Below are positions 17,971 to 48,741 of a stretch of 48,741 bases of DNA, piece by piece. The DNA lies in assembly GCA_012729395.1 (NCBI GenBank), contig JAAYDF010000198.1, forward strand, positions 1 through 48,741, read 5' to 3'. The notes under the pieces were generated by a model that worked only from the letters and a program-made list of their open reading frames with translations, did no database searches and was not told where the DNA came from. The stretch's first letter is position 1; the number at the start of each line of letters is the position of its first letter. The position numbers were made by a program, and so were the translations under genes. The stretch comes from Phycisphaerae bacterium (GTDB lineage: Bacteria; Planctomycetota; Phycisphaerae; UBA1845; PWPN01).

Positions 17971-18324
17971 CAAAGACACCGCATTCGCCGACGTGGAGAG
18001 CGAGGCTCACGCACCGCTTCACTCGGCCAAGAGAACCCAGATACTACTCCTTAAACCCTCCTTGGCAAGCGAAATGGACTCTACCAGACGAGTGCTTTTC
18101 TGTCAATTGGCTTCCGGTTGTTCATGCTGCGACGTCTGGAGCGGCGGTGGCCGACCGTCCGTTTCTGTGCGGCGGGCTGATTTGGGGAGGTGGCGCGGCA
18201 GGCGGGATTATTGTACAATGATGGTAGGCCCCTGACGGCATAGGCGGGCGAGCTTCTCACGGGGGTGCCCGACCGAGGGCCCGAGCTTTGCGATCCGTGG
18301 GACGGGGCACGATCGGAGACGGCG
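17971..18324. other. Divergent intergenic region before the GHL10 gene
   Basis: This 354-bp stretch has no gene. A TACAAT at 18214-18219 in an AT-rich patch is a candidate -10 for the GHL10 gene, giving a leader of about 100 bases; its -35 is poor. No repeat was seen. Confidence 0.35.
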
Positions 18325-20832
18325 ATGATGAGAGTCTCATCCGTACTGTTGGCTCTCGCGGTGGCTGGAGGGGTCACACTGCACCCAACCGTGTTATGGG
18401 GCCAGGATCCCGAGTTTCGGGCGATGTGGGTGACCCGGTTCGAGTGGCCCCATGCCGACCGGGCGACATGCCAAGCGAAGATCGACAGCGTTATGCAGTC
18501 GTTGGCGGCGCACCATTTCAACGCGGTTTTCTTTCAGATCCGCGGGCAGTGCGATGTGTTTTATCCCTCGCCCGAGGAGGTCTGGTCGCCTCTGATCGGG
18601 GGGGCAGATCCCGGTTGGGATCCGTTGGCCTACGCGATCAGCGCGGCGCACGCGGCTGGCATCGAGTTTCACGCCTATATCAACACGCATACCTGCTGGC
18701 TGGCTTCGGGTGGAGCCTTGCCGGCGAACCTGAATCACCTTTTCTACAAGCACTGCAACGCGGCCGACCCAGCTCGCCATGACTGGCTGATATGCGATTC
18801 GCAAGGGGATCCGGTCCAGCGGGCCGGCGGTTACGTCTGGATCGCTCCCGGCATTCCGGACTTCCAGGCTTATTGGCGCAGGCAGGTCATGTACGTGGTG
18901 CGGAACTACGACGTCGATGGCGTCCACTTCGACCGCATTCGCACGCCTGGGGCGAGCTACTCGTACGATCCGATCAGCCAGGCTCGCCTGGCGAACTCGC
19001 AGAGCAATCCGAACGCACTGGACTTCGCGGCCTGGACGGCCGATCAGACCACCCGGCTGGTTCGCGACATGTATGCGGAGATCATGGCGGTCAAGCCGCA
19101 GATCGTGGTCAGCGCCGCGGTCTTCCCGAACCCGGCCACGGCCCCGACGGGTGTGTATCAGGACAGCCTGGTGTGGGCCCAAACCGGCGGCATGGACATG
19201 CTGGTTCCCATGATGTACTCCACGGGCGGGGCCGGCTCGGGCTGGGATACTACGCTGCAAGCATGGCTTGCCGGCAGCGCCGGACGTCACGTGGTGGCGG
19301 GGCACAATACCAATGGAGGCGTGGCGGAACTTCTGGCCCAGGTTGAGCTGACGCGAACGCGCGGCGGGCAAGGCAACAGCACCTACTCCTACAACTCGTT
19401 CACCGGCTGGAGCGACTACTTGGCCGAGGTGTACCAAGCGGCGGTGCCGACCCCGGGGATGACATGGAAGAGCAACCCGACCACCGGGATCGTCTATGGA
19501 TACGTGCGGGATGCGCAGGGTATGCCCGTTGTGGACGCCCAGGTGTCGTGGTCCGGTTCGACGTACAAGGCATTGTCGAGCGGCGATGGGCTCTACTCGT
19601 TTCTGCTCGTTCCGCCGGGTACATACACAGTGACTACTTCGCACATCGGCTACGATCCGGTCAGCCCGGCACAGGTCACGGTGGCCGCGGGTACGGTCGC
19701 ACGCCTGGATATCACGCTTGGATCGCTGTTGCCGCCGATCATCGCCGCGGTGAGCCCCGATCCAGACTCGGCGGTTCGAGGTCGGGAGTACGTTTGCCAG
19801 TTGACGTTGGCTCAGGGCATCGCGGACTCATGGAGTCTGCTCCAGGGGCCGAGCGGCGCGACAGTGGATAGTGTTTCGGGCCTTGTTCGCTGGGTACCCA
19901 TGCCAAGCGACTCGGGGCGTCTGGTGGCCTTCTCCGTGCGGGCATCGAGTGCAGCCGGCGACGATGAGGCAACATGGAACGTGCAGGTGGAATCGATACC
20001 GGCGTGCGAGACGTTCGGTTTGACCGGCTTCGAGGAGTACAGTGAAGGGACGCGGGTGATGTTCCGGAATCCTCGCTACAGTGGGTCATCCGTTCCCCAT
20101 CTTGCCCCGACGCCGGATGTCAGCGAGGTGACCGAGGCGATCCCCGCGTTCGGTGGGGGCAAGTGCTACATGTTGCAGTGGGAGTACCTCGACACCAGCT
20201 TGCAGCGATGGGCTCGCGTTACCACAGCGGGAGGGGCTTACATCCCCAACCCGACGGTTGATTTGAATCGTCCCATCCGGCTCCGCCTGCGGCTGGACAG
20301 CGGTCGCCTGCGATTGGCGGTGGGGATTCGCGAGACGGGTACCACCGCGGACCTCGGGGCGGATGGGGATCGGGTCGGGAGCATCGAGTTCCTCGGGGCC
20401 GCGGTGACGGTCGACGGGGCGCCGCAAGGGGTGCTCATCGAGCCGATGCCCGGCGAGTGGCAGACGTTTACCTTCGATCCGCGAAACGACGCTATCGTCG
20501 AGTTCACGGGCGACGGGGTACTACATACCCCCAGTGGAAAGGGGACCCTGGAGTGCCTGGCGTTTTCCATTGTCGACGGCGTTGGTCCCTATACGGTCTA
20601 CCTTGACGAGATCGACTTGCCGTGTGATGTGCCTGGCGACTTCGACCATGATGGCGATGTGGACCTGAGCGACTTCGGTCATTTTCAGCGTTGTTTCAGT
20701 GGCCCGGGCAATCCATTTCCGGACGGCTGCCGTTCCGCCGACTTCGATCTTGACGGTGACGTGGACGGTCTGGACTTCGACGGGTATCGCGGCTGTCTCC
20801 ACGGTGCCAACCTACCGCCCGGATGCTGGTAG
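18325..20832 (+). CDS. Secreted GHL10-type glycoside hydrolase-like protein with calcium-repeat tail
   Basis: This 835-residue protein has a signal peptide (about 1-26). A GHL10/DUF187 TIM-barrel domain (about 28-370) opens 'EFRAMWVTRFEW', with 'FQIRGQCDVFYPS' and 'YDVDGVHFDRIR' typical of the family. A carboxypeptidase-regulatory-like beta-sandwich (about 400-470), an Ig-like stretch and a jelly-roll-like region (about 560-780) follow. The last 55 residues hold two EF-hand/dockerin-like repeats ('DFDHDGDVDLSDF' and 'DFDLDGDVDGLDF'). The family acts on glycans or peptidoglycan-related sugars; the substrate is not known. The ATG at 18325 (or 18328) follows GGAG and begins the signal peptide. 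The gene converges with the serine hydrolase 22 bp away. Confidence 0.85.
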   Translation: MMRVSSVLLALAVAGGVTLHPTVLWGQDPEFRAMWVTRFEWPHADRATCQAKIDSVMQSLAAHHFNAVFFQIRGQCDVFYPSPEEVWSPLIGGADPGWDPLAYAISAAHAAGIEFHAYINTHTCWLASGGALPANLNHLFYKHCNAADPARHDWLICDSQGDPVQRAGGYVWIAPGIPDFQAYWRRQVMYVVRNYDVDGVHFDRIRTPGASYSYDPISQARLANSQSNPNALDFAAWTADQTTRLVRDMYAEIMAVKPQIVVSAAVFPNPATAPTGVYQDSLVWAQTGGMDMLVPMMYSTGGAGSGWDTTLQAWLAGSAGRHVVAGHNTNGGVAELLAQVELTRTRGGQGNSTYSYNSFTGWSDYLAEVYQAAVPTPGMTWKSNPTTGIVYGYVRDAQGMPVVDAQVSWSGSTYKALSSGDGLYSFLLVPPGTYTVTTSHIGYDPVSPAQVTVAAGTVARLDITLGSLLPPIIAAVSPDPDSAVRGREYVCQLTLAQGIADSWSLLQGPSGATVDSVSGLVRWVPMPSDSGRLVAFSVRASSAAGDDEATWNVQVESIPACETFGLTGFEEYSEGTRVMFRNPRYSGSSVPHLAPTPDVSEVTEAIPAFGGGKCYMLQWEYLDTSLQRWARVTTAGGAYIPNPTVDLNRPIRLRLRLDSGRLRLAVGIRETGTTADLGADGDRVGSIEFLGAAVTVDGAPQGVLIEPMPGEWQTFTFDPRNDAIVEFTGDGVLHTPSGKGTLECLAFSIVDGVGPYTVYLDEIDLPCDVPGDFDHDGDVDLSDFGHFQRCFSGPGNPFPDGCRSADFDLDGDVDGLDFDGYRGCLHGANLPPGCW

Positions 20833-27354: not shown

Positions 27355-30300
27355 TCACTTGGGTGGATCTGAGACAAGGACGCAGAGTCGTAGCCAGCCG
27401 GGCGCGTTGGCGACATTGAGTCGGGGGTTGAGGAATCCGCCGTCGAGATCCTTGGGTTGGGATGCGACTCGGCTGACGACTTCGGATTGGATCTGGCCGG
27501 TGAGCCAGTCGTCAAGCCGACCGCTGCCGCGCAGGGCGTAGACGAACAGGGCGTTGGAGACTTTGAGGTCTCGGGCGCCTGGGTATCGCATGGATTGGAG
27601 GGCGGCGGCGGGCTCGCCGGTGGCGATCTGCCAGGGTACTCGCCAAAGCTGCGCGGGGTTTGCGGGCTGCTGAGGTGGCGGCCCGGCGCTGACCATGGTC
27701 CAAACCGAGATGTGCAGGTTTGGGTTCTGCCCGCCGGTGCACAGGCCTGCCACATTATAGAGGGCTTCGGGGACTTGGACCTTGCCTTGCACGGTTTGTT
27801 CGGTTCGAGTTTCGGCGTCGGCGGTGATGTCGGGTCGCGCTCCCGGGAAGGGCAGATGCGGGAGGGCGAGGAAACACATGGGCCCGTCGGGTGCGATGAC
27901 GATGCCGAAGGAGCGGGTTTGCGATTTGAAGAAATCGGCTTCGCCGACAACGGGGCCGAGCAGGGTGGCTCCGAGTGTTCGGCCGACCTCGGCGTCGGCT
28001 TGCTGGACCATTCGGGCCGTCGTTTGGCTCAACAGCCGTGCCGGTCCAAGGCGTACGTAGCGAGCGTAGACGGCTTGGGAGCGGTTCTCATCGGTGTCGG
28101 TGGGGGTCAGCCAGTAGATGGCGTGGACGTGGCGTTGGCCCCAGAAGTACTCGATGAAGCGGCACGGGCGTACGAAGATGGCGTTGTCGGTGCTGCGTCC
28201 AGTGGAGGACAGATCCTGCCGGGCTTTCTGGGTCCAGTCTTCGAGTGACTGGGCGCCACTGCCGCTCTCGTTGGACATCCACTTGAGGCGGGCGATTTGT
28301 TGCAGGTACTGCCAAGCCTTGGCGCTGCCGCCGGGCACATCGACCGGCTGACCGTCCTGTACGGTGACATTGGCGGCGGCCAGATCGTTGATGATTTCGC
28401 GTTCGAGCTCTTGGCGTTGAACCCACCATTGCAGGTACTGCTGGCGATCGGTGGGTGTCTGGGCCTTGAGGTGTTCGATGAGTTTGGCGGAGACGGTCTC
28501 CGCGGGCTTCTCTGTGCCGATCTCGTCGGTTTTGAGGGCCAGTGGCGGCAGTGTTTCGCCCCATGGGTAAGCGAGTTGGCTGGTCACCTGCTCCGGAGTT
28601 GCGGTGATGCGCAGCGGCTCGCCCAGCAGTTCGGGTTCGCCTTCCGCCTCGCCCAGCCAGGTCGCGAAGGCTCGCAGCCAAGTGAGGTTCCCCTGTGCCT
28701 GCTCCAGCAGGGCGGGTACCAGTGCGGCCAAGACCTCGGGTGGCCGGACCTCGATTCGCTCGCTCTCGATTGTCAGGGTGTGGCGTTGAGGGGCTCCGAT
28801 CTCGATCGGCATGCGCTGCTCGCGGAGCCGTTCTTTGACTGCCGGCGGGAAGTCCAACCGCAGGGTTACCGCCTCGCGATTCTCGATGGCGGACACATCG
28901 GCGAGGCTCCAGGTCAGTTCCCGACTCTGGCTGGCCGCGGGAAACTCGACTTTGCCGACTTCGCGACCTTCGCCGGAGTCGAACAGGTGCACCTGGAGCG
29001 GCTCGGCGATTGTGCCGTCGTCCGCGACGTCGAGGCGGATGCCTATCTTATGCTCGGCAAGCGTGGAGCGTTTCGTGCGGCTGTCCGGGTGGACGAAGGC
29101 TACGGTGGCCCGGTCTTCGTCGATCACCTCGATGATGATTGGGTCGGATTTGAGGTTCTCATAGGCGGCGTCCTGGCTTTCGCAGCGTAGCCGAATCGTG
29201 GCCGTGTGGCTGCCGTCCACCGTCCGATCGCGGATCGCGGCGATGGTGATGGTCTGCGGACTGGACCAGTTGTCGGTGGTGAAGTTGAGCCTGTTCGGGG
29301 TGATTCGGACCTGGTCGGCCGCGTCGTGTTCGAGGCTGATCTGGACGGGCGCGGTGGGGTGCGAAGTGAGCTGCAGCGTAGTCGTGTCCTCCTCCCCTTC
29401 GCGGATCTGCATACGTGATTGGCCGCAAGTGAGCCCGGCATGGTCGTCATCGACGATCGCGACGGTGGCGGTGGCGGGTTGTTCGAGACGGGCCCCGGTC
29501 GCGGACGTCGCCTGGACGGTGACGAACTTGCCGGGATTGACGATCTGGTCGTTTACGGCCTCGATGGTCAGCTCGTGTTCACTCTGCCCGGCCCGCAAGT
29601 CCACGGTCTGGTCTTGAGAGAGGCCCGATACGGTGAAGTGCTTGCCCGGCTCTGCGGTAGATCCCTGGAAGTCAAAGGCGATGGTCACGGCTTCACTGGT
29701 CTCGCCGGCGAGTTTGAGCGTGATGGTCGCCTTTCCTCCCGCCTCGGCGATGCGTGGCGGGCTGGGATTGATGTTCATAGTGAGGACGACCGGCGGGAGG
29801 GTTGTCGGCGCGTGTCCTTCGGCGGCGGTCGCGGTGGCGGGTGATACGTCAGTGGGTGTGGGCAAGTCTGTCCGTGGGGCTGGGTCCGTCGGACGGGGTG
29901 AGACGCTGGTGGTGTCGGTTTGTCCGGGCGAGGGGGGCTGCCGGCTCAGCCACCAGTAACCACCGGCGCCGGCCGCGAGGACGACGGCAAGCCCGGCGGC
30001 GGCGAGTTGAAGCTGCCGAGCGCGGCGGTTTCGCTGTCGTCGGGCATGATCCTGGGCCGCTTCGGTCAGTGCTTCCTGTGCCTTCTGCTGGATGCGGCGG
30101 GCTTCGGCGTGTAGATCCTGGACATAGGGAACCGCCAATACGGCCTGAGCGCAGTCGATGGCTCCCCGGTGGTCGCCGGCGGCGTGCGCTTCGTTAGCCG
30201 CACGGAGATCACGGCTCGCCTTGGACTGCCGGGCGGCAATGTCCTTTTGGGTGGCCTGGATCTCCTCAGTCAGGCTTTTGACGCGGTTGCGGATGTCCTC

Positions 30301-33300
30301 GTTCCCGTGGTGCCTGACCGCCTCCGCCAGTCGGAGGGCCTCGTCGAGGTTCTCCAACTCGGCGGGGTCGTTGCGTTTGCGTTGCTCGAACTGTGCTCGT
30401 GCGAGCTTGAGATCGCTTTGAGCTTCTTCGATATCGAGGGTTTTGAGGAAGCTCTGGAGCGCGGCGGCCATATCGGCGGCGGTGGGGTAACGTTCTTGAG
30501 GATCGTCGGCGATTGCCCGTTCGCAGATTCGGGCCAGTTCGGGTCGAACGTTGGGTGCGGCTTTGGCTAGAGGCTTGTAGTGCGCCCGCAGTGTATTCAG
30601 CAAGGTCTGGGAGATCGACGCCACCGAGAGGGCGGTCCGGGCGGCGGCATCGCCGGGCTCGTGGAAGGGGGGCCGGCCGGCGAGCAGCTCGTAGAGCACG
30701 CAACCCAGGGCGAAGATGTCAGCCCGCTGATCGACCTGGTCGCCCATGGTGGTGATGACTTCGGGTGCGATGTAGCCTGGGGTGCCGCAGAGCCCGGTCT
30801 TGGCTCGCTGGTCGGTCATGGATCGTATGTACGCCAACCCGAAGTCGATCAACCAGGGGCCTTCGCCTTCCGCTTCGCCGAGGTAGATGTTCTGCGGCTT
30901 GACGTCGCGGTGCAGTACGCCGTGCTGGTGGGCATAGGCCAGGGCCTCCGCCACGGCGATGAGGATCTCGGCTGCCTGCCGTTCCGTTGGCTTGTGTTTT
31001 CGCGTGTACGAGGCCAGGTCCTGGCCTCGGATGTAGTTGGTATCGAAGTAGCGGCGGCCCTCGATGATGCCCGAGCTGTTGATGTGCATGATGTGGGGAT
31101 GGCTCAGCCGGGCGACGGCCTTGGCTTCGTTTTCCAGGGCCTTGTCCAGCTCGGGACTGATAGCCGCGGTGGGGGTCAGCTTGAGGGCGACCTCGCGGTC
31201 CAGGTCCAGGTCTCGGGCCCGGTAGACTTCGCCCATTCCCCCCCGTCCGAGCGACTCGATGATCTCGTATTTGTCGCCGAGGCGGTCGGAAGGGGCCAGG
31301 GGCTGAATCTGCGGGTCGACGACTACATCGCTGCTGCGGTCGTCCACGAAGTTGTCGATCGTGGTCAGTGATACCTGCAGCCACTGGGGCAGGCTGGATT
31401 TGGATTCGACGAGTTCACCGCTGTCACCGGCGAGTTGTGCGCGTTCAGCTCGCCGCCGCAGGTGCTTCCGGATGCCAGCGATGAGCACCTCTGCTTGTCT
31501 GTTTTTGGCTCGCTTGCGAAGTAGAGTGGCCACTTGGGCTTGCCGGCTGCCGGGCTCGCTCTGGGAGAGGATCTGCTCGAAGGATCGCAAGGCGTTGGAG
31601 AACTGCCCCTGGTCCGCCAGGGCCTGGGCTGATTCCAGCGGGGGCAGGAGATCGATCAACTGCCGCGCTGTTCTGGCGAGGGCATCTTCGGTATGCGGGT
31701 TCGCCAGAACATCTTCTGTTAATCGCCTGGTGGTGACGAGATCTCCCAATTGGAAGCTGGCCAGGGCCCGCTCGTAGTCCGACGCGGTTGCCTCGCGTGC
31801 CTGCTTCTCGGCCGCCACCAGGGCGTCGGTCTGCTGGATGAGCTGCTCGCTCCGATCGCGCAAGGCGAGATCCGCATGGTCGGTTTCGAGCACCTGTCGG
31901 GCGGCGAGGACCACGGCGTCGAACTGCCTGCGTTTGAGCATTTCCTCGGCTTCGTCGAGACGTTGCCGGAGTTGCTCGCGTTCCCGTTCGAGCCGTTCTT
32001 CGATCCCGCGAAGGAGTTCCTGGGCCGACTCGACGATTGTCGGGAACTCGGAGCGCACGAGCAGCTCGGCCACGTGCCGAGCCTTGATGAGGTGGCCCTG
32101 TTCGGCCTCGGACTGCGCCCGGCCGAGATCCTGCTCTTGTCGTTCGAGTTGGCGGATGTTCTGATCGACAAGGTCGAAGACCTGCTCGCGCAGTTGAGCG
32201 ATACGTCCGGCCAGGTCGCGAGCGCGTTCTTGCTGTGCGGGCGACAGGTGGTGGATGGCCACGACCTCTTCGATGATGGCGTCGGCTCGGCTCAGGCTGG
32301 TTTCATCGAGCATGCGCGGCGGCTGATTGATTGTCGCCTCGACGGCGTCGAGCAGTGCTTCGGCTCGCTGGCGGGCCTGGACCTGGTGCTCGCGCTGCTC
32401 GCTGATTTGCGATTCCTGATCGTCGACGCGGGTTCGCAGCGTGCGGGCCTGGTCGGCCAAATCGGGGTGGGCTTCCTGTCGCAGGATCGGTTCGAGCAGG
32501 TTGCGTGCTCCGTCGAAGTCCTGATCGGCGAGCAGGTCGGCGGCTTGTCTGAGTTGTCCGCGCAGCTCCTCGCGAAGCCGCTGGCGGTCTTCCTCCTTGC
32601 TGCGATGCTGGGTGAGTTGCGTGGCCAGGGCGGCTGCTTCGTCGTCGATATCGATGAGCCACTTGGGGTGTTGGTCGCGCTGGCGCAAGCCCTCATCGAG
32701 CTTGTCCCACTCGCCGTCGTCGCGGAACTGGCGCAGGCGGGCCAGCCAGGCATGTGCGGTCTCGCGGATCCGCTCGATGTCCGGATCAAGCTCGGCGCGG
32801 CGGTGGGCCAACGTTTGCCACAGGGCCAGGCTTTGTTGATACAAGGTGGGCGGCAAGGCTTGCGGCCCGCTCGATTGTTCAAGGTAGCTTTGCAGAGAGG
32901 CGATGGCCGCGTCGGCCTCGGGGAGGCCGAGGGGTTGGTTGCCGGTCAGGGCGGCTTCGATTTCCTGTAGACTGCGGTGGGTGTTCTGAGCCGCGGCGGC
33001 CCGCTGCCGGATGGTTTCGACGCAGCGGTCCAGCTCTCCGGGCAGGTTCGCGGGACGGGGTAGAGCGATCAGCTCGCTTGCGGCCGTCTCCCAATTCTCG
33101 CCGGCCATGTTCCGGAGGTTCTTGGCCGACGCGAGGAGGAAGCCCGCTGTTTCCGTGACGTTGGCGGGCATGTCGGGCGCCTCGGCCAGTAGCCTGATAT
33201 CGCTTGCCACCCGCTCGTCAGCCAGTTCCTCCCAACTTGCCTGGGAGAGCCGGTCCGCGATGAGCTCCAGTCGTCGGCCCATGATTTCGTCGGGCTCGAC

Positions 33301-34191
33301 GGGCTTGATCCCGGCGGCTTTGAGTCGCTTGACGATGTCCGGAGCCGACGGTCGCCCTTGGGGAATGCGGTCGATCATCTCCCAGAGCAGCTCGCGCCAT
33401 ACCTTGACGGTCGGTTCCTCCGACTCGCGCAGGTCGGGTCGCAGGGTGTTGAACGGCACGGGAGCGCCGAAGGCCATGGTCTCGGCCAACTCGGCACTGC
33501 GCAAGGCCTCCGGCTCGTTGTAGAAGTAGGGGTGGCGATGCTCGGTCAGGAGATAGAGCAGGAATCCGGCCGCGACCACGTCTCCGCTGCGTTCGAAGCT
33601 GCGGTAGAGTTGTGTGCCGTACTTCTCCGGGTCGATGAAGGCACAGATGCGGTCGTCGCGATCAGGCACGTTGGGGTCAAGGATCTCCCAGATTCCGGTG
33701 GCGCCTTCGATGAGGGTTCCGGCTTTGGCGGCCTGGACGGCGAGGTTGAGGAACCGCTGCTCGCCCAGACCGTCGCAGATGGCGGGCCCGAATCCGAAGT
33801 CGGCGACCTTCTCGACGCCGTTGAGGTCTCGGAGCAAGACGCCGGGGCACAGGCCGCCGTGGACCACGGGTTGGCGGGCCTGGGTGGAGTGTGCCGCCCG
33901 CAGCCCATCGAGCAGAGCGATGGACATGCGCCAGATTGTCTCCCGGTCGGCGCCGGGGGTGGTGGGGTCGAAGAGGTCGGCCAAGGGCAAGGGGGCGGCC
34001 GGCTCGTGCTCCACGAAGAAGCAATGATCGTCTTCCTGCAGCGTGCCCACGAGTTGGAGGACATGGGGCGATCGCGAGCCGAACTGCTTCTGGGTCTCGA
34101 TGGCGGCATCGAGTCCCTTGGCCAATCGCGCACGAGCCTGTTCGTCCAGGTCGGGGGGTTTGAGTACGACTCGCCTGTACAACTGGCTCAT
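27355..34191 (-). CDS. Giant membrane Ser/Thr kinase: pseudokinase, helical region, kinase, Calx-beta ectodomain
   Basis: This 2278-residue protein has several parts. Residues 1-295 are a kinase-like domain without glycine loop and with HGGLCPGVLL in place of HRD-KP-N, but with DFG at 131-133: a pseudokinase. Residues 300-950 are helical and charged with TPR-like pairs. Residues 975-1245 are a complete Hanks kinase: GRGGMGEVY (982-990), Lys1004, HRDVKPQN (1094-1101), DFG at 1116 and APE at 1142. A second helical stretch, about 1250-1390, precedes the single membrane helix at about 1393-1415. Outside are a Pro/Thr linker, two Calx-beta-like domains (about 1470-1690) and some 590 unassigned residues. 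The canonical kinase should phosphorylate cytoplasmic partners. The ATG follows AAAGG. Confidence 0.9.
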   Translation of the reverse strand: MSQLYRRVVLKPPDLDEQARARLAKGLDAAIETQKQFGSRSPHVLQLVGTLQEDDHCFFVEHEPAAPLPLADLFDPTTPGADRETIWRMSIALLDGLRAAHSTQARQPVVHGGLCPGVLLRDLNGVEKVADFGFGPAICDGLGEQRFLNLAVQAAKAGTLIEGATGIWEILDPNVPDRDDRICAFIDPEKYGTQLYRSFERSGDVVAAGFLLYLLTEHRHPYFYNEPEALRSAELAETMAFGAPVPFNTLRPDLRESEEPTVKVWRELLWEMIDRIPQGRPSAPDIVKRLKAAGIKPVEPDEIMGRRLELIADRLSQASWEELADERVASDIRLLAEAPDMPANVTETAGFLLASAKNLRNMAGENWETAASELIALPRPANLPGELDRCVETIRQRAAAAQNTHRSLQEIEAALTGNQPLGLPEADAAIASLQSYLEQSSGPQALPPTLYQQSLALWQTLAHRRAELDPDIERIRETAHAWLARLRQFRDDGEWDKLDEGLRQRDQHPKWLIDIDDEAAALATQLTQHRSKEEDRQRLREELRGQLRQAADLLADQDFDGARNLLEPILRQEAHPDLADQARTLRTRVDDQESQISEQREHQVQARQRAEALLDAVEATINQPPRMLDETSLSRADAIIEEVVAIHHLSPAQQERARDLAGRIAQLREQVFDLVDQNIRQLERQEQDLGRAQSEAEQGHLIKARHVAELLVRSEFPTIVESAQELLRGIEERLEREREQLRQRLDEAEEMLKRRQFDAVVLAARQVLETDHADLALRDRSEQLIQQTDALVAAEKQAREATASDYERALASFQLGDLVTTRRLTEDVLANPHTEDALARTARQLIDLLPPLESAQALADQGQFSNALRSFEQILSQSEPGSRQAQVATLLRKRAKNRQAEVLIAGIRKHLRRRAERAQLAGDSGELVESKSSLPQWLQVSLTTIDNFVDDRSSDVVVDPQIQPLAPSDRLGDKYEIIESLGRGGMGEVYRARDLDLDREVALKLTPTAAISPELDKALENEAKAVARLSHPHIMHINSSGIIEGRRYFDTNYIRGQDLASYTRKHKPTERQAAEILIAVAEALAYAHQHGVLHRDVKPQNIYLGEAEGEGPWLIDFGLAYIRSMTDQRAKTGLCGTPGYIAPEVITTMGDQVDQRADIFALGCVLYELLAGRPPFHEPGDAAARTALSVASISQTLLNTLRAHYKPLAKAAPNVRPELARICERAIADDPQERYPTAADMAAALQSFLKTLDIEEAQSDLKLARAQFEQRKRNDPAELENLDEALRLAEAVRHHGNEDIRNRVKSLTEEIQATQKDIAARQSKASRDLRAANEAHAAGDHRGAIDCAQAVLAVPYVQDLHAEARRIQQKAQEALTEAAQDHARRQRNRRARQLQLAAAGLAVVLAAGAGGYWWLSRQPPSPGQTDTTSVSPRPTDPAPRTDLPTPTDVSPATATAAEGHAPTTLPPVVLTMNINPSPPRIAEAGGKATITLKLAGETSEAVTIAFDFQGSTAEPGKHFTVSGLSQDQTVDLRAGQSEHELTIEAVNDQIVNPGKFVTVQATSATGARLEQPATATVAIVDDDHAGLTCGQSRMQIREGEEDTTTLQLTSHPTAPVQISLEHDAADQVRITPNRLNFTTDNWSSPQTITIAAIRDRTVDGSHTATIRLRCESQDAAYENLKSDPIIIEVIDEDRATVAFVHPDSRTKRSTLAEHKIGIRLDVADDGTIAEPLQVHLFDSGEGREVGKVEFPAASQSRELTWSLADVSAIENREAVTLRLDFPPAVKERLREQRMPIEIGAPQRHTLTIESERIEVRPPEVLAALVPALLEQAQGNLTWLRAFATWLGEAEGEPELLGEPLRITATPEQVTSQLAYPWGETLPPLALKTDEIGTEKPAETVSAKLIEHLKAQTPTDRQQYLQWWVQRQELEREIINDLAAANVTVQDGQPVDVPGGSAKAWQYLQQIARLKWMSNESGSGAQSLEDWTQKARQDLSSTGRSTDNAIFVRPCRFIEYFWGQRHVHAIYWLTPTDTDENRSQAVYARYVRLGPARLLSQTTARMVQQADAEVGRTLGATLLGPVVGEADFFKSQTRSFGIVIAPDGPMCFLALPHLPFPGARPDITADAETRTEQTVQGKVQVPEALYNVAGLCTGGQNPNLHISVWTMVSAGPPPQQPANPAQLWRVPWQIATGEPAAALQSMRYPGARDLKVSNALFVYALRGSGRLDDWLTGQIQSEVVSRVASQPKDLDGGFLNPRLNVANAPGWLRLCVLVSDPPK

Positions 34192-37398: not shown

Positions 37399-37456
37399 GA
37401 TTCGACAACTGAGCGGTCAACGCATTGACGGCTGAATCAGAGAGTACCTGGTGGCC

Positions 37457-39223
37457 ATGGAAAAGGAACAGAGCACGCGCGCGGGTATCTGGCTTGTTGC
37501 CCGGCAGGGCGAGCAAGTTGTCGGCCGGTTTCCAGTGCCCGAGGGTGTCGATCTCGTGCTGGGGGCGTCGCCGCAGGCCGACTGTGCCCTGAGTACGGAG
37601 CGTTACCTCAGTCGTCGCCACGTCCAACTGCACTACAGCGAGGAACAACTGCGGGTCGAGCGGTTGCCGAGCGCCTCGAACCCGATCATGTACCGCGGGT
37701 CGAGTGCGGAGCGGTGTGCCTTGCGGCCGGGCGATTACTTCGTGATTGGCACGACGGTGTTTCAGCTGGAGGGCCCATCGATCGGGTCGTCCGGCTTGTC
37801 AACCAGCCGGGGCGAGTCTCAACCGACGGACGTCTTCACCTTGGGTGCTGCCGACGTGCAAGTGCGGGCGGACGTGACGGATCGGTTGCGTCTGCTGGAT
37901 CTGATGAAGCTTCCCGAGGTGCTGCGGACGCGAAGCCGCAAGGATTTTTACCTGTACGCGTGCGGCGGCCTGCGGATGGCGACGGGTGCCCGGTACGTCC
38001 AGGTTCTGGGATTCGAGGAGGGGCATGCGCGGGTGTTGTGTGAGGATGCGGGGCTGGACCGTGGGCCGGCCAGGTCGCAGAGCCGATCGCTGGTCGAGGC
38101 GGCGGTGGCGGCGTCTCCCCATCCGGTAACGTATTGCTGGCGGAAGGAGGCTTCGTCGAACGATCTGATGGCGACGGCCTGCGAGGGCATCGACTGGGCG
38201 GTCTGCTGTGCCGTTCCGGTGCCTGGCGAGGCGCCGCTGTTGTTTTACATCGCGGGCGACGGTAACGGTTCGCGGCCGGGCGGTGGGGCAACGCTCGACC
38301 TGCGGGATACCGCCCGGCTTGTCGGGCTGGTTGGCGACGCGATCATGCGTGCGGTGGCGATGCAGAAGTTTGAGGAGTGGCAAGCCAAGCTGGGCCACTT
38401 CTTCTCCGGCAAGCTGGTCACCAAGATCCTCGAGTCCGAAGACCCCCGGCAACTGGAACCGCAGATCCGCGAGTCGACGGTGATGTTCTTCGACATTCGC
38501 GGCTTCTCGCTGTTGACGGAGGGTAACCTGGAGCGGATTCTCGCCTACCAGGGCGAGCTCAAGCGGGCGATGACCGCCATGACTCAGTGCGTCTTCGATC
38601 ATGACGGCGTGGTCATTCGCTACATGGGGGACGGCATCCTGGCCTGCTGGAACGTGCCTTACGATTTGCCGGACCACACCGAGCAGGCCTGTCTGGCGGC
38701 CCTGGGCATGACCGCGTTGCTTGGCGAGGTGACGGCGGGCTGGACGTGTGGCATTGGGCTGGGGGTAGGGGATGTCGTGGCCGGCTCGCTGGGCTCGGAG
38801 CAGGTTTACGCGTACGACATTCTCGGCCCGGTGGTCAATCAGGCCAGCCGGGTCGAGGGCATTACCAAGGCGGTGGGCGTGCCGATTCTGGTTACAGAGG
38901 ACGTGGCCAAGGCGGTCTCGCCGGAGCGCATCCTGACCCGTCGTGTCGCCCGTTTTCTGCCGGTGGGCGTGGAGACGGAGGTTGATCTGTATACCATCGA
39001 GGCGACGCCGACCGACGCCGCTGCTCGCGAGACGATCGAGCACCGCCACCGGTTACATGCTCAGGCGTTGACGGCGTTCGAGCAGGGCGACTGGGAGACT
39101 GCCTTTGATATTCTGCATGCCATCGTGAAGGAGGACGCCGCCGCCCGGTATGTGTACACGTTGGCCTTGCAGCGCAAGCCGCCGCGGGATTGGCGCGGCG
39201 TGGTCGAGATGAGCAGCAAGTAG
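37457..39223 (+). CDS. FHA-GAF-class III nucleotidyl cyclase
   Basis: This 588-residue cytoplasmic protein is predicted to make a cyclic nucleotide, probably cAMP. The FHA domain (about 10-105) includes 'LSRRHVQLHY', which reads phosphothreonine. The middle (about 145-310) is GAF-like. The class III catalytic domain follows: Asp346 ('FFDIRGF') and Asp392 ('MGDGILACW') are the metal ligands, and Asn461 and Arg465 ('NQASR') stabilise the transition state. Asp454 is the adenine-specifying residue, but the partner lysine is Arg388. The FHA domain suggests control by a Ser/Thr kinase; the giant kinase lies 3.3 kb away. The ATG at 37457 was preferred over the GTG at 37451. The C-terminal 70 residues are a TPR-like helical segment. 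Confidence 0.9.
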   Translation: MEKEQSTRAGIWLVARQGEQVVGRFPVPEGVDLVLGASPQADCALSTERYLSRRHVQLHYSEEQLRVERLPSASNPIMYRGSSAERCALRPGDYFVIGTTVFQLEGPSIGSSGLSTSRGESQPTDVFTLGAADVQVRADVTDRLRLLDLMKLPEVLRTRSRKDFYLYACGGLRMATGARYVQVLGFEEGHARVLCEDAGLDRGPARSQSRSLVEAAVAASPHPVTYCWRKEASSNDLMATACEGIDWAVCCAVPVPGEAPLLFYIAGDGNGSRPGGGATLDLRDTARLVGLVGDAIMRAVAMQKFEEWQAKLGHFFSGKLVTKILESEDPRQLEPQIRESTVMFFDIRGFSLLTEGNLERILAYQGELKRAMTAMTQCVFDHDGVVIRYMGDGILACWNVPYDLPDHTEQACLAALGMTALLGEVTAGWTCGIGLGVGDVVAGSLGSEQVYAYDILGPVVNQASRVEGITKAVGVPILVTEDVAKAVSPERILTRRVARFLPVGVETEVDLYTIEATPTDAAARETIEHRHRLHAQALTAFEQGDWETAFDILHAIVKEDAAARYVYTLALQRKPPRDWRGVVEMSSK

Positions 39224-41109: not shown

Positions 41110-43395
41110 TTAGTCGCTTGTACGGCCCATGAGCAGGGCGCGGGCTTGCGGATGGTCGGGAGCAATCTCCAACGTGCGCTGCAGGGCGTCGCGGGTTTCC
41201 TCGGACAGGCCGAGTTGATGCAGAATCGTTGCCCGAGCGTAAGGATAGTCGGCGACACCAGGATCGAGTTCCTCGGCCTTGTGCAGATGGCGGATCGCGG
41301 CTTGGGGATCGGCGAGCTGGTTCTCGGCGAGGGCGAGGTTGTACCAGTAGCGGCTTTGGGCGGGGTCGCGTTCAACGGCCAGCCGTAGGGCGTCGCGGGC
41401 CTGGTCGATGTGACCGAGTTCGCCGTAGAGCAGAGCGAGCGAGTAGGGGTGGGCCGCCTGGTCGGGCTCCGCCGCCGTGGCCTTCTTCAACTGCTCGACG
41501 GCGTCTTGCGAACGCCCGGTGTTGTGCAGGGATATCGCGTAGGCGTGGTTGAACATCGCGGGGCCTGGATCCCAGCGGATGGCTTTCTCGTACCAAGGCA
41601 ATGCCTGGGCGGGCTGGCCTCGGTCCGCGAGGAGATTGGCCCACTGGAAGGCCCCGAGCGGCTGGTCCTGGTTGAAGTTGAGGTAGCCCATCAAGTCGCG
41701 TCCGGCGAGCGAGTCGAGATCTAGGTGGTGGCGGAAGAGCCAGGCGGTTTTGACTCGCACCAATCGCGAGGGGCTGTCGAGCTTCGGTCTGAGCCGGTCG
41801 GTCAGCAGGGGGGCGAACGGATCGAGGGCCTCGATGGCCGCGGCCTGAGGGACGGGCGAGGGGTCGTTCAGCATGTCGGCGAGTGCGTCGATCAGGGCCG
41901 AGCGGGTCGCCGGGTCGCGCACCGCGGGCACCGACGGGGCCAGCATTCGGGCGTATACCGCACGCCAAGTGGGGTTGGTTTCCTTCTGGAGCAGGGCCAG
42001 GGCTTCGGGCACGGCGCTCAGGTCGTGGGCTTTGAGCCGTGCGAGTGCCCGAGCTCGATCGCGCGTCGGGCGATCCATGCGTTTGCCGTACCATTCCTCG
42101 ACGAAGTACAGAGACCAGTCCACCTCCTCGTCGGCGTGGCAGCGGGTGCAGGCGTTGGGGATGCCGTGCTCCTTGGTCAGGAGCGGGTCGGGGATGGTCA
42201 TGCCGTGGTCGTGCCGCCAATGTCGTTGCATGTACGCGGTCTGAGGCATGTGACAGTCGAAGCAGGCGAAGCCGGCCGCGTTGGGTGGGTGCTGACTGTG
42301 CTCGGCCTCGTCAATGGGAATGCGGCCGGCGATGCCCTGCTGGTGGCAGCGGAGGCAAAGACGGTTGTCCTTCCGAGTGACTTTCATGGTATGCCAGTCA
42401 TGGCAGTCGGTGCAGCGGACGCCCCAAGCGTGCATGGCGCTGAGGCTAAAGGCTGCGTACTCGAAGTCCTCGTCGTGGATTTGGCCGTCCGGGTAGAACA
42501 CTTCCGAGGTGTCTGGCAGGACGAGGTCGAAATGTTCGTGGAAATCGTCACCGGGCATGAACCGGCCGGTCAACTCGGCGCGGCGCGAATGGCAGGCGGC
42601 GCAGGTGTTGATGTACCGTTCGCGGTCAAAGGGCCGCAGGGTGGGGTCGCCCTCCTGGTCTCGGTGAGCGGTCTGCCATTCCCCGTGGTCGCGCATCGGG
42701 CCGTGGCATTGTTCGCAGCCGATGCCCAGTTCGAGGTAGGTGGTGCGGTAGGCGTCGGTCTTGGCGTCGTAGTTCTTGTGGAAACCGGTGGTGTGGCAAG
42801 TGGCGCACATGGAGTTCCAGTTCATGCCGCGGCCGGTCCAGTGGCCCCATTCTTCTGGCCTGCGGTCCTCCTCGCCGTAGACGTTGAACCATTCCAGTTT
42901 GGCCGGGTCGAACGCCAGCTCAGTGACCTGGACTCGCCCGCCGGGCCAGGGGATAAGGTACTGCCGAAGTGGGTCGTGCCCGATGACCTCGACGGGCTCG
43001 TATGCCTGCGGGCGTCCGTCGGGGCCGGTGGTGGTGATGGTGTAGCGGTCGTTGACGCGCTGAGCGAGTGAAACCTCGGATCCGTGGGGAATGAGCCGCG
43101 GCGGATCGAAGGCATCCTGATCGGCGGTCGGTGAGACTGGTCGCTGGGCCAGGGCATGGTGCGAGGTCCGCCAGTCGTCGTAAGCCTCCTGGTGGCACTC
43201 GGCACAACTGTATGAGCCGGCATAGGCTTTGTAGGGCTCGATGCCCGCGGGCATGGACGTTGGAAGCGCGCCCGCCGACACTGCCCGAGCAACGCCCATG
43301 AGCAGCATCCCCAGTAGAGCGACGCGGCCCGCCATCCATGTCGTGAGGCCGAGACTTGGTCCGCATGCTTCGTTTGTGTACGTACGCCTATTCAT
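41110..43395 (-). CDS. Octaheme cytochrome c fused to HEAT and TPR repeats
   Basis: This 761-residue exported protein has a signal peptide (about 18-42) and eight CxxCH heme-binding motifs at residues 64, 197, 227, 265, 328, 347, 378 and 416. Their spacing and segments such as 'SYSCAECHQEAYDDW' and 'GIGCEQCHGP' resemble the octaheme cytochrome family, including hydroxylamine-oxidoreductase-like and nitrite-reducing relatives. From about residue 430 it continues with HEAT-like helical repeats, and from about 560 with at least five TPRs ('QPAQALPWYEKAIRWDPG' and later). This fusion occurs in planctomycetes. No partner oxidase or cytochrome-maturation gene is near, and the electron donor and acceptor are unknown. 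A GGAG lies 5 bp before the ATG. Confidence 0.9.
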   Translation of the reverse strand: MNRRTYTNEACGPSLGLTTWMAGRVALLGMLLMGVARAVSAGALPTSMPAGIEPYKAYAGSYSCAECHQEAYDDWRTSHHALAQRPVSPTADQDAFDPPRLIPHGSEVSLAQRVNDRYTITTTGPDGRPQAYEPVEVIGHDPLRQYLIPWPGGRVQVTELAFDPAKLEWFNVYGEEDRRPEEWGHWTGRGMNWNSMCATCHTTGFHKNYDAKTDAYRTTYLELGIGCEQCHGPMRDHGEWQTAHRDQEGDPTLRPFDRERYINTCAACHSRRAELTGRFMPGDDFHEHFDLVLPDTSEVFYPDGQIHDEDFEYAAFSLSAMHAWGVRCTDCHDWHTMKVTRKDNRLCLRCHQQGIAGRIPIDEAEHSQHPPNAAGFACFDCHMPQTAYMQRHWRHDHGMTIPDPLLTKEHGIPNACTRCHADEEVDWSLYFVEEWYGKRMDRPTRDRARALARLKAHDLSAVPEALALLQKETNPTWRAVYARMLAPSVPAVRDPATRSALIDALADMLNDPSPVPQAAAIEALDPFAPLLTDRLRPKLDSPSRLVRVKTAWLFRHHLDLDSLAGRDLMGYLNFNQDQPLGAFQWANLLADRGQPAQALPWYEKAIRWDPGPAMFNHAYAISLHNTGRSQDAVEQLKKATAAEPDQAAHPYSLALLYGELGHIDQARDALRLAVERDPAQSRYWYNLALAENQLADPQAAIRHLHKAEELDPGVADYPYARATILHQLGLSEETRDALQRTLEIAPDHPQARALLMGRTSD

Positions 43396-43754: not shown

Positions 43755-45134
43755 TCAGCTCATGCGCAGTGCGAAGGCGGTGATGTCGTCGTGGGGCCAG
43801 TCGGCAGGTTCTCGGCTGGCGGCGAGGAGGCGGATCTGCTCGAAACACGCGTCAGGGCCTTCGTCGGCAAGCTGTCGCATCCAGTCGGTCCGCAAGATAG
43901 CTTCGTCGCCATATGTATTGGGGCGGTCGAGGAGGATGGCTTCGAGGCCGTCGGTGTAGAAGAGCAGCAGATCGCCGGGGGCCAAGCTGTGCCGCACCAC
44001 CTCGAACGATTGCTCGTCCACGGCACCGATCAACCCGCCGCAGCTGCGGATCTGGCGTGGCTCTTGGCCCGGCCGAAAGAGAACGGGATAGGGCATGCCG
44101 CCGCGTGCCCACCGGATTTCGCCGGCCGTCCGGTCGAAGATCGCGTGCAGCGCGGTCACAAAATGGCAATGCTGCAGGTGGGCGGCCAGCAGCTCGCGGT
44201 TCAGTCGGCTAAGCAACTCGTCCGGCTCGATGATGCGATAGGAGCCGTCGACGATCTCCTTGCCGCGAAGCGAGTTCTTGACCAGGATGGCCAGCAGAGC
44301 GGCCGGTAGCCCATGGCCGGTCGCGTCCGCCAGGGAGAAGCCGAAGCAATGCTCGTCGAGGCGGGTGATGTCGTAGGTGTCGCCGCTGACGTAGTCGGCA
44401 GGCAGGTAAAGCGTCGTGACGGATAGCGGAGCGGTATCCGCCGTCGGCTGCGGCAACAGGTCATTCTGGATTTGGCCCGCGATGCGGAGTTGTTCGTCGA
44501 TACCGGGCGCGAAGCTCTGGGTGTGAGCCTGCCGAAGCTGCCGCAACTCCTCGCGCATTTTGCGAAGCGGATGCCTAATCTCGCACAGGGCCTTGATCCG
44601 GCCGGCGAGTTCGTCGGCATTGAGGTCGGCATCCCCATTTCGACGTTCCGCCAGAAGTCCGCGTTTGTTGCACGGCCGACCGTTACCGTTTGTTGGCCCG
44701 TTTCGGCAACTGGCCGACGGGAGTACCAAGGCGGCGCAGGTGCTGTCCGAACCCTCGGCGAAGAATCGGTTGAGGGCTTCGGGCTCGCGGTCTTCTGCGG
44801 GTAGGACGACGCAGAGGTCGGCGGATGGAGAAACACCGCTGGCCAGGACCTTGTCCAGTGAGCGGATGGACACGCGGGCGTTCATTCGGTTGAGCGCGGC
44901 TCGCAGAGAGGCCGGCGGAGCCGTGTCATGGTCGAGAACGAGGTGTACGTGCGGCGTCGACAAGGCCTGACATCCAGGACGAGTTGGCGCGGTTCCGCCG
45001 ACCTGTGCGTATACACTCGACGTGACAGGGGGCGGCCTCGCGCTTCCACTCACTTCCTGGTTCGGCGGAAATCGCGCGCGACTTGATTTATTACCGGAAT
45101 CTGCGCGGCCTTGCCTCGATTTTTCGTTTTCCAC
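43755..45134 (-). CDS. PP2C/SpoIIE-type Ser/Thr phosphatase with receiver-like N-terminus
   Basis: This 459-residue phosphatase is of the RsbU type. The catalytic domain spans about residues 215-459: 'SGDTYDI' (250-256), 'LADATGHG' (268-275), 'FYTDGLE' and the final 'HDDITAFAL' supply the metal-binding acidic residues. The first 60 residues are low-complexity. About 60-140 looks like a two-component receiver fold ('HVHLVLDHDT...'), but the phosphorylatable Asp position reads 'CVVLPAED', so it is degenerate. A coiled coil (about 175-210) joins them. The reported start is GTG at 45134 and is uncertain; no ribosome-binding site is seen. It starts 21 bp after the end of the 1071-residue secreted protein on the same strand. 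Confidence 0.82.
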   Translation of the reverse strand: MENEKSRQGRADSGNKSSRARFPPNQEVSGSARPPPVTSSVYAQVGGTAPTRPGCQALSTPHVHLVLDHDTAPPASLRAALNRMNARVSIRSLDKVLASGVSPSADLCVVLPAEDREPEALNRFFAEGSDSTCAALVLPSASCRNGPTNGNGRPCNKRGLLAERRNGDADLNADELAGRIKALCEIRHPLRKMREELRQLRQAHTQSFAPGIDEQLRIAGQIQNDLLPQPTADTAPLSVTTLYLPADYVSGDTYDITRLDEHCFGFSLADATGHGLPAALLAILVKNSLRGKEIVDGSYRIIEPDELLSRLNRELLAAHLQHCHFVTALHAIFDRTAGEIRWARGGMPYPVLFRPGQEPRQIRSCGGLIGAVDEQSFEVVRHSLAPGDLLLFYTDGLEAILLDRPNTYGDEAILRTDWMRQLADEGPDACFEQIRLLAASREPADWPHDDITAFALRMS

Positions 45135-45155: not shown

Positions 45156-48100
45156 CTACCAAGCGACGGTGACGGTGGCCTCCGGTGCCGGTTGGGTGAA
45201 ACGGATCAGCAAGGCACGAGCGTGCTCATCGTAGAGCCATCCATCCGACGATTGATGTTCTGGATCGGTATGGGCTTCAAGAGGCCGGCCTTCGACACGG
45301 ACCTGCCGGGGCCGCTCTGGGCCGGCGAGAAGCAGCTCATTGGGCTGCCCTTCCGGGAAGGAAACGCGGACAGACCAAGCGGTTGGCGAGGGTGGCGATG
45401 CACACTGAAGCAGCGTGCCCCAGCCGCTGACATGCCAGCGTCGCGAGGAAGCCGCCTCGGAGAGGATGCGAGTCCAGGTTTGCGGCCATGACGGGAGGCG
45501 GCCCTGGGCTCGCAGGCATGCGGCCGGCAGCATGGCGCTGATGAATGCTCCCGTTGCCTGGTTGGTGGTCACGTCCCAGACGTCGGGATAGAGGCCGACC
45601 CAGGGCTCGCGGTCGAAGGTTTGCTGCAGGCCGCTGAGGACCACGCCGTCGGCGATGTACCGCAGCAACGGGTCGGGCCGATCGGCGTCCAGCTCGATGA
45701 CCTTCCACGCCCATTCCAGCCCGCACCATTGAACGATGACGCCGAACCAGTTGATGACGTAGAACGTCGGGCCGAGCACGGGGACGGTACCGAACGGCGT
45801 TACCTGGCGATGAGGGTTTTGAAAGGCGTCGGCAAGTGGCAACGCTTGCCGTGCCCAATCGTCGCGATCGTGCGAGGCGAGCACGCCGCCGGGCAGGTGC
45901 TCGATGGGCACCCGCCAACTGTAGGCGAAAGGCACGCCGGTCCAGGCCCAGTGCGACGCTTCGTCCAGGTACCGGCGATCACCGGTGATCTGGTAGCCGA
46001 GGTGGAACGCTTCGACGGCGAGGGCGGCGGCCCGGATGTCCGGGATGTCCTTGTGTACTTCCCAGACCTGGGCTCCGCGTGGAACGCGGAAGGCCATCAT
46101 CGCGTTGAGGGCCTTGGTTGCCGCGTCCACGTATTCGCGTTCGCCGCTCAGAGCCGCGTGCCGGATGATCGCCAGGGCGGGCTGGACGCAGGTGCCCAGA
46201 CTGGTTGAGCCCTCCTCGCCCAGTGAGTCGTACTGGCCGCCGGTGAACTCGCGGGTCCGCTCTCGAGCCTGCTGATTGTCCGCGTAGGGCCAGGTGCCGT
46301 CGGGTCGCATGGCGGCCATCTGCCTGCGGGCGTGGGCCTCGCCGTGGCGCAGGCGGGCGGCGAGCGTCCCCTGGGCGTCGATGATTGACCGTCCTTCCAT
46401 GCCCGTCCGACGTACCCAGCGGTCGTCGCCGGTCTTGATGGCGTGGGTGATTAACTCGGCGGCCATGAAGTGGACGAACCGGCTGCTCTTGTCCAGGTAC
46501 CAGTGCGTTCGCCAACCGCGGTCTTGCGGCCAGTACATGGTTTCGCCGTAGTGCCGCGCGATCATGTCGTAATTGCCTTGGTCGTCATGGACCACGGGAG
46601 GGGGCGCGGGGCAGCCATAGACTTCGTACCATCGACGGGCGGTCTCGACGACGCTCTGCCCGGGCTCGGCCAGCAGGTGGCAACGTAGCGTCAATGGACG
46701 CTCGGCCCGCATGATGTAAGGTTGCCGGGCCAGCTCTTCGTTCTCTTCTCGCCATTCCGGGATCGTCGGCAGCGAGAGGGCCATGAGATGGTTGGGCTGG
46801 CCGTCGAGGAAGTTTGGCGACGCGAAAGTGGCGGCGGGCATGAGGGCGTGCCCGTCCCAGGAGTCCAGCGGCTGCCAGAGCATGGCGGTCGTCAGCCCGG
46901 CCGCCTCGATCGCCATGACCGGCAGAGTGACCTTGAAGGGGTGCGGCTGCCAGCGGTCGGCAAAACGATCTCCCACCGCTCGGTTGCTGGAGGACGGCCA
47001 GCCCGGATCGAGGAACTCCAGCCCGCCGAAGATGGCGGAGCGGTCCAGTGGGTCGGCGTTGGCAGGCTCGCGATCCGCTCGCAGGACCGGGGCCGTGAAG
47101 TCGAGCAGTTGCCCGCCCTGGGGGCCGGTGAGTTCGGCTGAAACCCGCAGGAGCGAGCAGCCTTCCTTGGTGGCGTCCGTTAGCGTCAGCGTGACCTCCC
47201 AGTCGCCGGCGGCGTCCACGCGGCCTCGCAGGAGCAACGCATGGCCCGATCTTTCCGCCGTGGTCATGCGAACATGCCGGCGAAGAATGCGACCGTCGCA
47301 AGCCCGCACGCTGACCTCCGCCAGCGGCATGAGCCAGCCCGTCTGCTGCCAGCCTCCCGCGGCGTCGCGGATCTGCCAGCGGGCGGCCCCGAAACCCTCC
47401 CCCTGAGCGGCGGGTACGAGATCCAGACGTTGGCGGTCAGTTCGCAAGCCCGCTTCGAGCGGCAGGAGGGCGCCTTGCCCGGCAATGACCGAGGCGTCGA
47501 GCTCCCAATCGGGCAGATCGGATGCCGCGCGAAGAACGACCCGCGGTTGGTGCACGCCGGCCTGCTCGAAGCGGATGGTGCCCAGGTCAACGGGCTTGGT
47601 CTGCGGTACGACGCTGTGGGTGGAAACGGTGAGTCCAGGTAATTCGGGTCGCCACCCCTGTTGTGCGGCCATGCCTGCCGCCTGGGTCATGCGTATCCGC
47701 AAGGTTGTCGATTCGCCCACCTCGATTCGGGCGGCGTCCGTTTGCAGCCGGGCGAGGACCACCGGTGGCAGGCGAAGGATCTCGACCGAAGCGATCTCGA
47801 CGGTGCCGGATAGGTTGCCGTTGTACGGATCGATACGCAGGGCGGTGAGCTTGCGTCCCTGCTCGGCCGGTCCGCCCAGAGAGAACTGCACGGTGACGAA
47901 GCCGTCGCCGTCCTCTGCCGCCGGTCGCCCCGGCGTGTTGCGGCTTTGCTGCAACTGCTCGCGGAAAGGTCCGAGCCCGTCGGTTTGCCAGTAGATCTGG
48001 GTGTAGCCCTCGCGATCGGACCGCAGGCGGATACGAATGTGGCAGCCATCCAGCGGTACGTCGAGCGGTGGGGCGATGAGATAGGCGTCCGGACCGGTCA

Positions 48101-48371: not shown

Positions 48372-48741
48372 GGCGAACCCTTTCGTTTGGCTACCGCGGG
48401 GCGACACGGTGAATCGTATCCCCAAACTACTCTCGCCGATCGGGGGCGACGGGGCAAGGTTCTTGCGGAAAGCCGTGGTTCGCGCTGACAATAGGGCACG
48501 AAGGCGCCCACGGCGTGTGAACGATCCCGGGGGCAAGCGAGCGGGAAACCCTGGGCTTGCGAAGTGTACGTCGTTGGCGTTCCGCTTCCCGGCGTCCGCG
48601 CTTTGGGCTTGTTGTTGGCTCAACTTACCCTTGCTGGGACAAGGTAAGCCGTTGCACGTCATAGGCTTAAGCGGGGATTTCGATTTCACGGGTGTGGCTA
48701 CGCGCGTGTGTTCCGCGGGTTTTGCCGAGGGGTAGACGTTC
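48372..48741. other. Right-edge region upstream of the large secreted protein
   Basis: This 370-bp stretch shows no gene. It should hold the promoter of the minus-strand secreted protein, and contains the stem-loop at 48617-48650. Confidence 0.4.
48617..48650. promoter_or_regulatory. Stem-loop near the right edge
   Basis: CTTACCCTTG (48624-48633) pairs with CAAGGTAAG (48640-48648) apart from one bulged C, around a 6-base loop; outer GGCT/AGCC may extend it. No T-run follows, so it is not a clear terminator. Confidence 0.5.

Follow-up and report, generated by a model that had tools for sequence, protein, structure and literature searches.

The 27355–34191 gene of a Phycisphaerae bacterium encodes a 2278 amino acid transmembrane protein that begins with a predicted pseudokinase domain. 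The family to which this domain belongs is associated with the type VI secretion system (T6SS), a bacterial apparatus for the injection of toxins; the association is well supported. It is the strongest clue to function and was invisible to the earlier sequence-only reading of this DNA. The best explanation of the protein, with a probability of roughly 0.6, is a T6SS membrane scaffold or sensor akin to PpkA or EssB/YukC, to which catalysis was added secondarily in cis. The term window refers here to the whole stretch of DNA analyzed, 48,741 nucleotides in length.

Open reading frame and domain organization

The gene is a single open reading frame situated on the minus strand. The stop-to-stop frame is merely 9 codons longer (2287), thus no glycine loop is hidden in frame upstream of the ATG. 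PK1 and PK2 denote the N-terminal and the internal kinase-like domain. The features of the open reading frame are as follows.

27355..34191, minus strand: whole open reading frame, 2278 aa, ATG start
33313..34191, minus strand: PK1, predicted pseudokinase domain, residues 1–293; profile match 395 bits, kinase fold
33853..33861, minus strand: HGG (residues 111–113) at the HRD site; Asp lost in 43/43 family members
33793..33801, minus strand: DFG (residues 131–133); Asp retained in 42/43 members
31312..33255, minus strand: helical linker, residues 313–960; homology to T6SS-linked relatives until about 555–645
30484..31269, minus strand: PK2, complete Hanks-type Ser/Thr kinase, residues 975–1236; Pkinase match and motifs
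29947..30015, minus strand: single membrane helix, residues 1393–1415; hydropathy, basic residues N-terminal to the helix
29443..29778, minus strand: Calx-beta domain, residues 1472–1583; Pfam PF03160 above cut-off
27835..28320, minus strand: conserved C-terminal module, residues 1958–2119; common to long-ectodomain members

The sequence-only reading had described a single 2278-residue chain with an N-terminal kinase-like domain that lacks the glycine loop and carries HGG for HRD but keeps DFG, a complete second kinase and one membrane helix at 1393–1415. All of these observations are confirmed. The membrane helix, as in the relatives, is called from hydropathy alone, which gives one hydrophobic helix near residue 1394 with the basic sequence RRQRNRRARQ just before it. 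Calx-beta-like domains had been proposed in the plural; one match, at 1472–1583 (E-value = 4e-7), is the sole one reaching the cut-off, and a second is not established. No PASTA domains were found in the window protein.

The outermost part of the chain had been read as some 590 residues of unknown fold. Residues 1690–2278 indeed show no Pfam match in a search of the whole chain, but about 155 residues of this segment, at 1958–2119, are conserved in 16 other sequences. An AlphaFold2 model of residues 1691–2278, built from three sequences, gave no usable fold (pLDDT 34). A search for related loci with the C-terminal part as query found none, and no second copy of this part was found within the window genome.

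The N-terminal domain is a predicted pseudokinase

PK1 alone (residues 1–312) matches the Pkinase family with 26 bits and an E-value of 5.8e-6, which is under the curated cut-off; 13 of 15 aligned members of the PK1 family also match Pkinase. In a PDB profile search, the profile of PK1 homologues matches GCN2, StkP, PknB and PknA with a best E-value of 1.9e-16. The top match is GCN2 residues 363–471, which we take to lie within the GCN2 pseudokinase domain.

An AlphaFold2 model of PK1 from a nine-sequence alignment (pLDDT 67, pTM 0.68) is good to about residue 170 and has a poor C-lobe after about residue 218. A kinase fold is predicted for residues 1–278. Comparison of the model with kinases gives Z-scores of 12–13 over about 200 aligned residues, the maximum being 13.3 with Stk1 (202 residues aligned, rmsd 3.9). 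The structural alignments begin at beta-3 of the target kinases, which indicates that PK1 is without beta-1, beta-2 and the glycine loop. In CDK2, MEK1, TTK and PknA the aligned ranges start six residues ahead of the beta-3 Lys. In this register the nearly invariant Arg7 of PK1 would occupy the catalytic Lys site, as judged from the aligned ranges rather than from a residue-level alignment.

The losses extend throughout the family. The HRD Asp is absent from all 43 members, with Gly as the third residue in 39, and the catalytic Asn is lost in 43/43; the DFG Asp is retained in 42 of the 43. A pseudokinase is a kinase fold without the beta-3 Lys, the HRD Asp or the DFG Asp; by sequence and model PK1 has such a fold and lacks one or more of the catalytic residues, and it is predicted to be a pseudokinase. 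Both the structure prediction and the survey of orthologs uphold the earlier reading of this domain.

The pseudokinase family in Phycisphaerae

Residues 1–312 used as a query in the genomes of relatives give 14 homologues with 28–51% identity. A PK1 profile run over 114 genomes of the order, many of which are fragmented public metagenome assemblies, finds 43 members in 38 genomes. There is a gap in family scores between at least 175 bits and at most 67 bits; a borderline member in genome G092 scores 66 bits and lies 4.8 kb from tssK. Among 391 planctomycete genomes sampled outside the order, 81 of them with TssK, no family members were found (six candidates per genome scored). PK1 thus appears, from these profile searches, to define a family in one planctomycete order of the Phycisphaerae.

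A typical member consists of a pseudokinase of about 300 aa, a linker mostly of about 650–850 aa, a single membrane helix at roughly residue 950–1170 and an ectodomain of about 430–1120 aa, and carries no active kinase. The window protein is homologous to T6SS-linked relatives through PK1 and the linker until about residue 555–645, and the homology returns at 1958–2119.

The second kinase domain and its fusion

PK2 matches Pkinase with an E-value of 4e-54 and displays GRGGMGEVY at 982, VALK at 1001, HRDVKPQN at 1094, DFG at 1116 and APE at 1142. With this set of motifs (glycine loop, VAIK Lys, HRD, DFG, APE) PK2 is a predicted active Hanks-type kinase. It also shows a partial match to NF033483, far under the family cut-off. 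PADLOC matches to anti-phage defense systems (PD-T4-6, MAD6, PglW and others; best 25) are centered on PK2 and represent generic kinase similarity; a defense role was rejected.

At the search threshold, no family member besides the window protein shows a second kinase domain; about 28 members extend beyond the membrane helix. A truncated relative in genome G012, which is of the same taxonomic family as the window genome, does show a pseudokinase followed by a kinase-like N-lobe, the same order as in the window protein. Its contig stops inside this N-lobe, in which the glycine loop is degenerate (GSRYEIREFINRSSTGDTYRA). Another G012 contig bears a C-terminal half matching that of the window protein. 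The kinase matches found in G012 could not be connected to the gene as its missing middle. Since G012 shows the same domain order, misassembly is an unlikely cause of the PK1–PK2 fusion. The G012 pseudokinase lies on a long branch, apart from that of the window, and the two arrangements may represent either a single shared fusion or two separate ones.

At the position of the conserved pre-membrane segment of its relatives, the window protein has a kinase and a short helical stretch. Simple insertion of PK2 within the shared linker is not favored, as the non-kinase pre-membrane segment of the relatives is unrecognizable in the window protein. From these comparisons the arrangement looks more like replacement of the pre-membrane segment than insertion.

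Association with type VI secretion

In the 114 genomes of the order, the family and TssK are found together in 34, the family alone in 4, TssK alone in 3 and neither in 73 (Fisher p = 4e-21). TssK is thus present in 34/38 family-positive genomes vs 3/76 others. The association persists inside four separate taxonomic families and therefore does not reflect one old split. A distance of at most 6.1 kb separates the family gene from tssK in 18 genomes. The neighbors of family genes encode TssK, TssL, a lipoprotein in the TssJ position and a coiled-coil protein; farther away are found TssM, a TagF-like protein, TssA, TssC and ClpV.

Of the three genomes with TssK alone, G048 and G057 carry a TssK just 36–38% identical to that of the linked genome G027, and in G083 the contig breaks within the coiled-coil gene, which adjoins the usual site of the family gene. 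Four family-positive genomes are without a detected TssK; among them is G040, which is 93% complete, and these count against a T6SS reading. No kinase, FHA or SpoIIE-type phosphatase genes were found in the T6SS loci examined (the FHA query was a single sequence, which makes this a weak negative).

Several neighbors are of interest in their own right. The coiled-coil protein, about 400 residues in length (L104 14590–15786 and homologues), is the most constant neighbor of the pseudokinase gene; its gene is usually divergent from the pseudokinase gene and ahead of the tssJ-like gene. It is a candidate new T6SS component. In several genomes an outer-membrane-like protein adjoins the pseudokinase gene. 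By eye, it combines a signal peptide with regions resembling TPRs and a barrel, and neither Pfam nor NCBIfam gave a match for it. A FecR-like protein also adjoins the pseudokinase gene in several genomes (loci of the two: L104 3650–7029, L110 12524–15965, L114 202–2535, L126 9803–13348). The two are possibly outer-membrane partners of this T6SS. Near the pseudokinase gene of G033 there is a mycosin-like subtilisin protease (L029 13080–15764; T7SS-type by NCBIfam, below cut-off), which has a homologue in G030.

The window genome

Contig C235 of the window genome carries genes for TssC, TssK, TssL, TssM, TssJ-like, TagF-like and coiled-coil proteins. Its TssK and that of the linked genome G027 share 70% identity, and in a tree the window pseudokinase clusters with T6SS-linked ones. 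The window genome is thus T6SS-positive as predicted from its genes, apparently with the same T6SS lineage as the linked relatives. The window gene lies elsewhere, on contig C170, beside an Nramp-type transporter gene; its separation from the T6SS genes counts against a T6SS reading. There is no further family copy in the genome.

Other open reading frames of this genome were also observed. In the window, 37451–39223 (plus strand) encodes a cyclase whose N-terminal part gives a weak FHA-like match, and 43755–45134 (minus strand) a SpoIIE-type phosphatase; both are at most 11 kb from the kinase gene, and the set of kinase, FHA and phosphatase recalls the T6SS threonine-phosphorylation trio, any link being at most putative. 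The 1177-residue open reading frame at 45156–48689 (minus strand), second in size to the kinase gene, displays no Pfam family. One chain, at 41110–43395 (minus strand), contains motifs like those of multihaem cytochrome c554 together with TPRs and weak HEAT-like matches. The protein encoded at 18265–20832 (plus strand) resembles GHL10 glycosyl hydrolases, contains a carboxypeptidase regulatory-like domain and has a type I dockerin at its end. Elsewhere in the genome, contig C78 (18736–19563, locus L152 of genome G000) encodes another sheath protein, TssC/VipB-like but divergent (97.7 bits), which perhaps belongs to another contractile injection system.

Comparison with known systems

Acidovorax PpkA has its kinase at the N-terminus, followed by a membrane helix and a periplasmic region; it binds TssJ, TssM, TssL, TssE and TssF, bringing components of the T6SS together at the membrane (PMC12607579). 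The window protein shares with PpkA of Pseudomonas, Serratia and Acidovorax the N-terminal kinase fold, the single membrane helix, an extracytoplasmic C-terminus and, through its family, a tie to T6SS loci in which a TagF-like gene is present as well. It differs in that PK1 is predicted to be dead and is without the glycine loop, the linker and ectodomain are far larger, and the active kinase is an additional domain inside the chain, found essentially in one lineage. The position in the T6SS locus is PpkA-type in the 18 relatives with the gene close to tssK, whereas the window gene is elsewhere. For Fha and PppA, the partners of PpkA, single-sequence queries gave no counterparts in the T6SS loci. 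Because HGG replaces HRD, the window protein is not classed as PpkA, though its function may be alike.

EssB/YukC of the T7SSb is a single-span pseudokinase that acts as a structural hub of the secretion system (PMC12599244, PMC9600267). It likewise has a cytoplasmic pseudokinase, one membrane helix, an external domain and a contact-type secretion system. However, the secretion system and phylum are different, the PK1 family retains DFG and the window protein is far larger; EssB is absent among the best 60 PDB profile matches of PK1. In GCN2 and JAK a pseudokinase also precedes an active kinase, but here the pair is not conserved in the family, the second kinase being present in the window protein and in part in G012. 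PK2 is of the general type of PknB/StkP receptor kinases, which also have a single membrane helix. The window protein differs from these in the lack of detected PASTA domains and in the presence of PK1 in front.

Proposed role and alternative explanations

We infer a scaffold role, the sensing of a signal and the phosphorylation of T6SS parts. Most likely, PK1 and the helical linker would serve in the cytoplasm, without catalysis, as a platform on which the membrane complex or baseplate of the T6SS docks, with TssJ, TssK, TssL, TssM and the coiled-coil protein, which are encoded adjacent in relatives, as putative partners. The ectodomain (Calx-beta and the conserved C-terminal module) would most likely read an envelope or contact signal, as a sensor or anchor. 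The protein would in this way license or position T6SS assembly, as PpkA does in Proteobacteria and EssB/YukC in the T7SSb. The family would thus do a PpkA-type gathering job in the T6SS of Phycisphaerae without catalysis, to which the window lineage added a kinase. The active kinase stands where linked relatives have a non-kinase segment, and the window chain therefore probably adds a phosphorylation output.

The sequence-only reading had proposed that the pseudokinase switches the active kinase allosterically. The pseudokinase call stands, but the cis switch cannot be the ancestral role, since the search, at its threshold, gives no second kinase in the other members. Cis regulation is possible in the window protein alone, and that interpretation is as a whole partly supported. 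As a full explanation, a receptor kinase in which PK1 controls PK2 as in JAK or GCN2, driven by the ectodomain and with no necessary role in the T6SS, is unlikely. It would account for two domains in one chain, the full set of catalytic motifs of PK2, GCN2 residues 363–471 as top profile match, the same domain order in G012 and the unlinked position of the window gene. However, PK1 is conserved in a family with no other second kinase domain and hence for another reason, and the window genome still holds the T6SS lineage that usually accompanies PK1.

The unlinked position, the new kinase domain and the loss of the pre-membrane segment are also consistent with a T6SS link that is historical only, where, after moving out of the locus and acquiring a kinase, the gene came to serve a different envelope-sensing pathway, in which the FHA-like cyclase and SpoIIE-type phosphatase encoded within 11 kb might also take part. 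This appears quite unlikely, as the matching T6SS is retained in a genome with no other family copy, the C-terminal module is still conserved and the cyclase and phosphatase neighbors are not seen on the G012 contig. Finally, the conserved DFG Asp and several invariant residues with no known role (the nearly invariant R7, Q34, H111, W168, D204) could point to a PK1 that catalyzes other chemistry, e.g. AMPylation or glutamylation as in SelO or SidJ. This is very improbable, since the glycine loop is missing and no member retains the HRD Asp or the catalytic Asn, which makes nucleotide binding doubtful.

Implications

A T6SS membrane scaffold or sensor remains the preferred reading. A more specific form of it is put forward tentatively, with the odds slightly against it: a lineage-specific T6SS in which a transmembrane pseudokinase is a dedicated membrane component replacing PpkA, and in which one branch regained catalysis through a second kinase domain with its gene outside the T6SS locus. 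In the open-license literature searched, no description of a T6SS using a pseudokinase in this way was found, and a T6SS in Phycisphaerae has at most a passing mention. The family offers a candidate component for the planctomycete T6SS, on which there is almost nothing in the literature searched. If the explanation is true, PpkA-type control of the T6SS and EssB/YukC-type pseudokinase assembly of the T7SS would be combined in one counterpart. It would also mean that this T6SS travels with a dead kinase and that the window lineage is a natural example of catalysis restored. The scaffold job of such receptors would then be separable from the phosphorylation job, which would be testable across the relatives.
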